Source: a virus. From it: a stretch of 22,582 nt of DNA. This document shows, in pieces, positions 7,244-15,547 of the stretch. Location: the IMG/VR virus record IMGVR_UViG_3300030329_003452, positions 15,308-37,889 of that record, one strand, 5' to 3'. A program made the position numbers and the translations under genes. The stretch's first letter is position 1. Each line of letters begins with the position of its first letter. The notes below the pieces were generated by a model that saw only the letters and a list, made by a program, of their open reading frames with translations, did no database searches and was not told the origin of the DNA.

Positions 7244-7292
7244 ATGCAACAAAAATCTTTATATCAATTAAAATAGTTGCGCTGTCTCCTCT
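7244..7292. promoter_or_regulatory. dyad module, copy 1
   Basis: ATGCAACA (7244-7251), then GTTGC (7276-7280) followed by GCTGTCTCCTCT. This is the same order of words as copy 2 at 7404-7443, but with the arms 32 bases apart start to start instead of 21, a difference of 11 bases, about one helical turn. It overlaps the proposed leftward promoter, so a protein bound here could control leftward transcription. Confidence 0.5.
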
Positions 7293-7403
7293 GAAAATAA
7301 TTATATTGATATTATTATTATATGTATCAATGGATTAAGGTTAATGGTTTAGTGTGAATCTACAGAGTTCGTGAGGTAGAGAACATGTAGTCATGACTAG
7401 GTT

Positions 7404-7443
7404 AATGCAACATAATATGTATAATGTTGCATTGTTCTCCTCT
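7404..7443. promoter_or_regulatory. dyad module, copy 2, enclosing TATAAT
   Basis: Perfect 10-bp inverted repeat AATGCAACAT (7404-7413) and ATGTTGCATT (7424-7433) around a 10-base centre, followed by GTTCTCCTCT. A perfect TATAAT (-10 element, 7420-7425, plus strand, preceded directly by TG) lies at the centre, though no good -35 is seen. A dimeric repressor bound to the arms would cover such a promoter, so this reads as an operator. Confidence 0.6.
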
Positions 7444-7478: not shown

Positions 7479-7523
7479 CCATATATATGGGGGGTGGTAC
7501 CCCCCAGTCTTTGGGGTCACCCC
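7479..7523. promoter_or_regulatory. palindrome and GC-rich alternative hairpins
   Basis: CCATATATATGG (7479-7490) is a 12-bp palindrome. It runs into GGGGGG-TGGTA-CCCCCC (7489-7505), and then GGGG-TCA-CCCC (7513-7523). The G and C runs can also pair across the two hairpins, so several structures compete. The patch is far more GC-rich than its surroundings and is followed by alternating TA (7531-7541). No strong U-run follows on either strand. Candidates are an attenuator, a bidirectional barrier, or a replication origin structure. Confidence 0.5.
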
Positions 7524-7573: not shown

Positions 7574-7603
7574 TTGACATAATATACATTTATATATTAC
7601 ATT
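7574..7603 (+). promoter_or_regulatory. candidate rightward promoter
   Basis: Consensus -35 TTGACA (7574-7579), with a -10-like TACATT 18 bases on (7598-7603, 4 of 6 matches). Other AT-rich hexamers lie nearby, so the -10 is uncertain. It is placed correctly for the rightward early genes. Confidence 0.5.
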
Positions 7604-7965: not shown

Positions 7966-8188
7966 GCTACTTAAAAGCCTCTTTCCTTTTGTGAGCAGCA
8001 AAAAACACAAAAGGGAACTACTTCTGCGTGAAGAAGCTATCAAGGGGTGTTTAAATAAAGAGCATTCTTTAATTGGCGAAATACTAGAAATAGTTGATAT
8101 GAACGAGCAAAATCAACTAAGCGCATTCTCTTTAAGGCAAAGCATTTTAAAAGTTATATACAGGAGGTTAGAAGAAAAACATGACTGA
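7958..8188 (+). CDS. hypothetical early protein, 76 residues
   Basis: The ATG at 7958 lies inside the end of the previous frame; only a weak AAGGA is seen, about 16 bases upstream. The basic N-terminus (MSRLLKSLFPFVSSKKHKR) is followed by helices (LLLREEAIKGCLN, HSLIGEILEIVDMNEQN) and a basic helical end (SILKVIYRRLEEKHD). It overlaps the next gene by 8 bases, and its last codons carry the GGAGG used by that gene. No family is recognised. Context is the short run of early regulators just before the replication protein. Confidence 0.68.
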   Translation: MSRLLKSLFPFVSSKKHKRELLLREEAIKGCLNKEHSLIGEILEIVDMNEQNQLSAFSLRQSILKVIYRRLEEKHD

Positions 8189-8375
8189 AGAACTACTTAA
8201 AACAAAAGATCTTTGTGATCGATTAAGTGTTACTCGTCAAACTATCCATAAGTGGAGAGTTGATGGTCTTCCTATTGCGTTTAAAAAGGGAAGGGTAATA
8301 CGATATAACTACCAGGCAGTTATAGATTGGCTACAAATACACAAGACTGAGAGGTCTATAGCAAAAGATGGCTAA
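8181..8375 (+). CDS. excisionase/MerR-type helix-turn-helix protein
   Basis: This 64-residue protein is a winged helix-turn-helix of the kind found in excisionases and AlpA-like regulators. Visible are LLKTKDLCDRLSVTRQTIHK (first helix, turn and recognition helix), WRVDGLPIAFKKGRVIRYNY (the wing, with the usual W-x-x-x-G-[LI]-P) and VIDWLQIHK (last helix). The ATG at 8181 is preceded by AGGAGG at 11 bases. Such proteins either act as recombination directionality factors with a tyrosine recombinase or as transcription regulators. A recombinase is encoded on the other strand at 4303-4866, so an excisionase role is reasonable, but a regulator of the nearby control region fits as well. Confidence 0.85.
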   Translation: MTEELLKTKDLCDRLSVTRQTIHKWRVDGLPIAFKKGRVIRYNYQAVIDWLQIHKTERSIAKDG

Positions 8376-8991
8376 ACGATTTTTAGACACAAACGTATTT
8401 GATAAGGAATGGTTTCAGGAGCTAGAACCTAAGTTTAAGCTGTTTTGGTTCTACATGATTAGTAAGTGTGATCATGCTGGAATCTGGAATGTGAATATGC
8501 GCATGGCTAATTTTGTTATAAATCACGACTATACAAGGGAAGGCGTCTTAGAGGCATTTAAAGACAAAATCGTTGAAATAGAGGATGATAAATGGTTTAT
8601 CGTAAAATTCATTAAATTTCAGTACGGTGATGATCTTAATCCAAACAATAGAGTTCATAAATCTGTTATCAAAATCCTGGAAGATAATAAGATTGACTCA
8701 GAGGATAAGGGTCATACTAGCCCCATAGAAGGGGCTACCAAGGGGCTTAATACATTCAAAGTTCCTACATTAAAACAAGTTATTGATCATTTCAAGGAAA
8801 AAGATTATACTAAACATGCTACAGAGGGAGCTAAGTTTTATCATTATTATTCGTCAGTAGATTGGAAGGTTGGCAAAAATAAAATGAAAAGCTGGCATGC
8901 AGCAGCCGCTGGATGGAACACTAGAATAAAAGATGTTCCCCCAAATAAGAAGGTTTATGTCGAAACTTCTCAAATAGACAATACGTACTGA
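8368..8991 (+). CDS. replisome-organizer-like replication protein
   Basis: This 207-residue protein has the two-part form of phage replication initiators. Residues 1-110 form a winged-helix-like domain (FDKEWFQELEPKFKLFWFYM, SKCDHAGIWNVN, then KWFIVKFIKFQYGDDLNPNN and RVHKSVIKILE). A short linker containing EGATKGLNTFK follows. The C-terminal part has the family pattern of A-x-K-F-Y-x-Y-Y, WKVGKNKMKSWHAAAAGW and an aromatic helix, thought to contact helicase-loading proteins or the helicase. In known relatives it recognises the origin and recruits the replisome. It overlaps the helix-turn-helix gene by 8 bases; the ATG has only a distant GAGAGG. No helicase or polymerase is encoded in the window, so the phage probably relies on host enzymes or on genes elsewhere. 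Confidence 0.8.
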   Translation: MAKRFLDTNVFDKEWFQELEPKFKLFWFYMISKCDHAGIWNVNMRMANFVINHDYTREGVLEAFKDKIVEIEDDKWFIVKFIKFQYGDDLNPNNRVHKSVIKILEDNKIDSEDKGHTSPIEGATKGLNTFKVPTLKQVIDHFKEKDYTKHATEGAKFYHYYSSVDWKVGKNKMKSWHAAAAGWNTRIKDVPPNKKVYVETSQIDNTY

Positions 8992-14611: not shown

Positions 14612-15547
14612 ATGAGTGAAGATTTAAAACAAGAAATAACAGAATTAGAAAATCAATTAGATGGAGTAGAGCCAGAAGCAAAAGAAGAGGCAGCTCCTGA
14701 TGATAATAAAGAAATTTCTACAGATAATGTAGTAGAAAAAGATGGCGAAATCTACTTAAAGGATGATTCAGCTGAAGAGAAAACAGAGGAATCTGTTGAA
14801 CAGCCAACTGAAGAATCTAAAGTAGAGACCGCTGTCGAAGATCCTTACAAAGATAAATCCAGAGAAGAATTAATTTCTTTGATTAACGAAAAGGAAAAAA
14901 TTGTCTCTGAAGAAAAAGGAACGCAACAGGTACAAAAGAGTGTTGACCAAATGTCCGAGAGGGAACTCTTTGATGAAATATCAGGTGATGAACTTGCTCA
15001 TGGGTTAATGATAGAAAAAGAAAAGTTTTCTAACATGAGTCCATTAGATGATTCGGCTGCATATCAAAACCAACAGAAACTAATTAATCAATTAGAAGTT
15101 GATTTGGTTGACAAAAGAACCCAGGAATCCCTGCAATCTCGCTTTGACAATTCTGCTAATGCGAAATATATCGCAGATTATAAAGATACGTTAAAAGGGA
15201 ATGGCATAGATTTATCGGAAAAGGAATATGCGCAACTAGTTCGAACAGCTAGTAATTATAAAGTTAGTGGGAAATTTGATGATTCATCAATGCAGAAAGC
15301 AATGATTGATTTATACGGCCCTGAAAAGATGATGGCTTATTATACATCCCAAGGAGAAGGTAAAGCTCGTAATGAAATTGCGACCGCTTCTTCTAAAACT
15401 CATCCAAAGGTAGATGTCTCAGGATCAGGAAAGAATGCTAAGTTAGTACGAATAAATGATATGGGAGCCAGAGAGATGAACAAACAACTTGATAATTTAT
15501 CTGTTAATGAACTACAAGCCCTTAACCGTAAACTAAATAAAACTTAA
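14612..15547 (+). CDS. capsid scaffolding-like protein, 311 residues
   Basis: ATG 14612 is preceded by AAGGGGAAA. The protein is very rich in Glu and Lys over its first 100 residues (for example MSEDLKQEITELENQLDGVE and EEKTEESVEQPTEESK), with predicted helices through the middle and a C-terminal helical pair (DMGAREMNKQLDNLSVNELQ, ending ALNRKLNKT). Low complexity, acidity, helix content and its place just before the major capsid gene are the usual marks of a scaffolding protein that templates prohead assembly and then leaves. There is no protease motif, so cleavage is not implied. The role is supported mainly by position and composition. Confidence 0.75.
   Translation: MSEDLKQEITELENQLDGVEPEAKEEAAPDDNKEISTDNVVEKDGEIYLKDDSAEEKTEESVEQPTEESKVETAVEDPYKDKSREELISLINEKEKIVSEEKGTQQVQKSVDQMSERELFDEISGDELAHGLMIEKEKFSNMSPLDDSAAYQNQQKLINQLEVDLVDKRTQESLQSRFDNSANAKYIADYKDTLKGNGIDLSEKEYAQLVRTASNYKVSGKFDDSSMQKAMIDLYGPEKMMAYYTSQGEGKARNEIATASSKTHPKVDVSGSGKNAKLVRINDMGAREMNKQLDNLSVNELQALNRKLNKT

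Follow-up and report, generated by a model that had tools for sequence, protein, structure and literature searches.

The locus analyzed here raises the question of which protein acts on two related inverted-repeat modules in a viral genome, and to what end. Both modules lie within a 22,582-nt stretch of an IMG/VR virus contig (the window; positions 15,308–37,889 of IMGVR_UViG_3300030329_003452), in an AT-rich intergenic region between two divergent operons. The left operon, on the minus strand, carries a gene for a small recombinase and, further on, genes for RecE-like and RecT-like proteins, and the right operon carries those for a helix-turn-helix protein, the terminase, the portal and the head. 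No DNA matches to isolated phages were found for the contig, nor were close relatives of the 8368–8991 protein found when viral contigs were searched by pattern. A preliminary description had read the modules either as paired operators for one dimeric regulator of both operons, with a promoter at a TATAAT in the second module, or as iterons of a replication origin.

Direct reading of the letters confirmed that the words ATGCAACA, GTTGC and CTCCTCT occur in the same order in both modules, that the arms of module 1 stand 11 bp further apart (the offset from ATGCAACA to GTTGC is 32, versus 21 in module 2), that module 2 has perfect 10 + 10 arms, and that both TATAAT and the 12-bp palindrome TAGTCATGACTA are real (Table 1). 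The TATCAAT words said to lie between the modules do so only in part: the one at 7325 is between them, but those at 7262 and 7458 fall inside module 1 and to the right of module 2, respectively. The arms of module 2 extend to 14 + 14 at 93% identity, and all three copies of ATGCAACA in the 37,889-bp record fall in this intergenic region. When the region was shuffled with dinucleotides preserved, none of 300 shuffles contained perfect arms of at least 10 bp with at least three G + C per arm. Within module 2, a core site can be delimited in which 10 of 11 arm positions are symmetric and the centre, TATGTA, is not self-complementary.

Table 1. Features of the window discussed in the text
Feature	Position	Strand	Description or basis
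Mini tyrosine recombinase, 187 aa	4303–4866	−	PF00589, 2.4e-23; phrog_216; structure model
Module 1, wide pair of core half-sites	7244–7280	+	TGCAACA-N23-aGTTGCg; adjoins left operon
Module 1 word ATGCAACA	7244–7251		direct reading
Module 1 word GTTGC	7276–7280		direct reading
CTCCTCT block after module 1	7286–7292	+	direct reading
12-bp palindrome	7388–7399		TAGTCATGACTA
Perfect 10 + 10 arms of module 2	7404–7413 / 7424–7433
Core site (module 2), 11-6-11	7405–7432	+	ATGCAACATAA-TATGTA-TAATGTTGCAT; geometry kept in 18 relatives
Core-site parts	left arm 7405–7415; central TATGTA 7416–7421; right arm 7422–7432	+
Module 2 word ATGCAACA	7405–7412		direct reading
TATAAT	7420–7425		in module 2
Module 2 word GTTGC	7426–7430		direct reading
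CTCCTCT block 5 bp past core	7437–7443	+	direct reading
GC-rich inverted repeats in the interval from core to right promoter	7488–7520	+	direct reading; similar elements in relatives
Promoter-like TTGACA-N18-TACATT, right operon	7574–7603	+	promoter scan

The products of 2276–2878 and 8181–8375 had been suggested as ligands. A likelier one, overlooked at the time, is the mini tyrosine recombinase of the left operon, which matches the tyrosine recombinase catalytic domain only, the N-terminal core-binding domain being absent. Its six catalytic residues, R39, K68, H135, R138, H161 and Y170, do not vary across 18 aligned relatives drawn from environmental phages and Firmicutes, and the structure model (pLDDT 89) is similar to XerA, XerH and Cre. 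The gene stands 2.4 kb away from the core in the window, a distance that counts against pairing the two.

A terminase search gathered 77 environmental viral contigs as relatives of the phage; with one exception, protein identity is at least 66%. Apart from the window, nine contigs contain an exact TGCAACA-N12-TGTTGCA and two a copy with one mismatch, and seven further genomes, whose integrases have a small insertion in common, show the same geometry with different arms (e.g. TATAACA-N12-TGTTATG). Across these 18 relatives the 7-12-7 geometry is kept, the arms change symmetrically and the flanks diverge around them, which is the arm conservation that the preliminary description proposed to look for. 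All 19 sites, that of the window included, share A4-A5-C6, T11, A16 and T20-G21-T22-T23; 12 have G at position 2 and seven have A, and at position 25 there are 12 with C and seven with T. The central four bases are free (ACAC, ACCC, GCAC, GGGC, AGGT and others), and for this reason TATAAT is incidental; it is replaced in most relatives, and a promoter scan found no −35 element 16–18 bp from it, so that its reading as a −10 element fails. A pattern built from these very sites matches once each in 17 of 20 regions (156 kb) where shuffles expect 0.6. Arm type tracks integrase clade, although the sequences are kin, so the counts are not independent and this link may represent one event. The site occupies the divergent intergenic region in relatives with mapped genes, and in many relatives, though not in every one, it is flanked by CTCCTCG-like words on one side or on both. 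Two genomes (G011 and G022) have the recombinase gene and no recognizable site. At least one relative gives a circular assembly, with 110 bp of overlap between its ends. A weak hint of the host comes from the sole terminase relative in the genome collection (L103), which is a contig of 6.6 kb assigned to the bin of a Candidatus Marinimicrobia genome.

The same pairing of gene and site is seen at shorter range in Gram-positive hosts. The window recombinase is ∼36–45% identical to LambdaSa2-type recombinases of Streptococcus and Listeria prophages, where the 7-12-7 layout lies 88–122 bp downstream of the gene (466 bp in Listeria). In the prophage loci, complementarity between the arms is highest at a gap of 12 (0.79, the runner-up being 0.45); of 89 loci, 55 contain a single site and the other 34 lack one. 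Viral contigs scanned blind for the Firmicutes centre yielded 98 sites with enough flank, and in 87 of them the recombinase is encoded upstream on the same strand, nearly always at 91–200 bp. Two well-formed Firmicutes-type sites (L284, 9576; L275, 5631) have no recognizable mini-recombinase within 3 kb upstream. We left out of the counts a TGCAACA site in L351, since the recombinase encoded next to it has no significant match to that of the window. A looser pattern was found in 15 contigs, and the five of these without the recombinase family are probably chance matches.

On Gram-positive plasmids, the site precedes the gene, lying 127–185 bp upstream in five of six; none was found on the sixth, from E. 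faecium. The arms on the 8.2-kb Bacillus plasmid pPM8 of B. badius are the same as those of the window, a Macrococcus plasmid site has the central TATGTA of the window, and a Planococcus plasmid site matches five of seven arm positions only; chance would yield ∼0.05 such matches per 220 bp. Extra half-site pairs that recall module 1 occur ∼75 bp upstream of two plasmid recombinase genes (L371, L372), near the likely recombinase promoter, e.g. TATAACA-N13-TGTTATA on pPM8. Another site of similar 7-12-7 form, TGTAACA-caatggtaatta-AGTTACA, lies 1.5 kb upstream of the first on the Macrococcus plasmid (L374; ∼6106, 7584), and the two flank small genes.

These sequence comparisons make it very probable that the core is the cognate site of the mini-recombinase, and a landing site for this protein is the most likely reading of the modules, ahead of a promoter or repressor operator. 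Given the retained catalytic residues and the linkage of gene and site, we propose that the protein is active as a recombinase and binds the core arms. What survives of the paired-operator claim is the presence of two related, two-fold-symmetric sites between divergent operons, probably for one protein; the promoter at TATAAT and the two suggested ligands find no support. Module 1 is probably an accessory or autoregulatory site, and as a regulator it could possibly serve autorepression of the left operon. Similar wide pairs were seen in only two of the 18 relatives (L047 at 4528, N22; L027 at ∼947, N23, read from sequence).

What the recombinase would do at the core is suggested by the number of sites. 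Nearly all phage and plasmid cases have one site per replicon, and since there is one core per genome, a reaction would need two copies of the phage DNA, for which the likeliest job is resolving circular dimers or multimers to monomers. Two recombinase monomers would bind the inverted arms, two cores would synapse, and strands would be exchanged across the central 6 bp; the circular multimers could arise from RecE/RecT-like recombination of the phage, and monomers would be produced by analogy with loxP, cer and the TnpI irs. Module 1 would be a second site of the same protein, restraining its own operon or biasing the reaction. We favor multimer resolution because there is one site per replicon, the site occurs on small circular plasmids, and the centres differ between replicons, and we place a probability of roughly 0.55 on the core being the crossover site of a self-contained dif/loxP/irs-like system with resolution as the main function of recombinase and core. 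The near-constant centres of Firmicutes prophage sites argue against this reading, since pure self-resolution does not require them.

The core has several described counterparts. The sites of dif/XerCD and of the single-recombinase XerH/difH system are also 28 bp long with an 11-6-11 layout, although dif arms differ for XerC and XerD where those of the core are alike, and Xer proteins have the N-terminal core-binding domain that the window recombinase lacks despite the resemblance of its model to XerA and XerH. Cre/loxP of P1 is likewise a phage-borne single recombinase with symmetric arms and an asymmetric centre, and Cre too is matched by the model, but loxP is 13-8-13 rather than 11-6-11 and Cre has a core-binding domain. 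The closest described layout is TnpI/irs of Tn4430 and Tn5401, likened here by layout and not by protein sequence, which shares with the window a single tyrosine recombinase, an inverted-repeat core and further candidate sites for the same protein, and in which the recombinase controls promoters within the site (PMC7157771). It differs in having two direct accessory repeats, DR1 and DR2, next to the core, where the window has one wide inverted pair 161 bp away, and unlike these transposons the window has no transposase. If the resolution reading is true, a dif-sized site is served by a recombinase that has no core-binding domain, and one resolution module is common to phages and plasmids, with arms and centre diverging between replicons. 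The family matches over two thousand plasmid records, and the core offers a testable site for the large family of small ‘second integrases’ encoded immediately ahead of the late genes in Gram-positive prophages. Our literature search found no paper on the function of these proteins, nor any function for the conserved Firmicutes centre, the LambdaSa2 recombinases or catalytic-domain-only recombinases.

An unlikely alternative, though the one that fares best, is that the core is an attP: the mini-recombinase would insert the phage at a host site whose centre matches, and the prophage ends would lie in the divergent region. No other tyrosine recombinase was found in genomes of this phage family, an HTH_17 excisionase-like protein is encoded close by, and the variable centres could mirror different host sites. 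A related arrangement is known from Tyrovirus, where an 11-6-11 inverted-repeat site just downstream of the gene for the tyrosine recombinase gp50 is a putative attP whose role its authors left unresolved; gp50 differs in having an N-terminal integrase domain and in sitting among structural genes (PMC9703825). Yet no integrated copy or host–phage junction was seen among the relatives; of 245 genomes in the phylum to which the one matching metagenome-assembled genome belongs, which may not be the phylum of the host, none carries the integrase and only the matching genome carries the terminase. A candidate attachment junction in L048, with the core of L057 and different adjacent bases, was rejected because the DNA further out on either side is that of phage. 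Moreover, related recombinases are found on small plasmids and beside a separate integrase: Javan433, a prophage examined at both ends, encodes a 381-aa integrase and a repressor, for which reason its mini-recombinase is unlikely to integrate it.

Quite unlikely, in our estimate, is that a recombinase reduced to its catalytic domain and a 28-bp site form a portable module, one that would allow phages and plasmids residing together to fuse and exchange gene modules at a single fixed point. The idea comes from 35 related prophage loci (L161–L225, probably Bacillus), in which similarity runs at ∼75% up to the site and stops exactly at the right arm, dropping to background (∼0.32) directly past it, with different genes between the site and the HNH–terminase block. 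One reading of this break is exchange between phages at the site, another is relaxed constraint combined with ordinary mosaicism. Integron-like two-site cargo was dismissed for these loci, since no second site exists at the far end of the cargo.

Very unlikely is an operator pair, at which a recombinase-fold or other dimeric protein would act solely as a regulator of the divergent operons. The sites do lie between divergent promoters, the promoter scan shows a weak left promoter-like sequence that overlaps module 1, and a precedent exists in MrpR of SPbeta, which, like the proposed window recombinase, combines a tyrosine-recombinase fold with repeated phage sites, binding them through a 15-bp motif at several promoters (PMC10516654). 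However, MrpR has lost several catalytic residues along with recombination (PMC10516654), where the window recombinase keeps all six; there is one dyad per genome rather than one at many promoters, and on plasmids the site is linked to the recombinase gene itself. The iteron origin can be dismissed as scarcely credible, for although the intergenic region is AT-rich with repeats, there are two dyads only with no regular tandem array, and the site type travels with the recombinase gene.

Beyond the core, the TTGACA of the right promoter-like sequence is retained in those relatives that were read by eye. The inverted repeat upstream of it is CCCCCCAGTCTTTGGGG-like, and similar CCCAG..TGGG elements occur in L018-type and other relatives. 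In the rest of the record (L005, 4829–13816), one 2995-aa open reading frame spans 9 kb.
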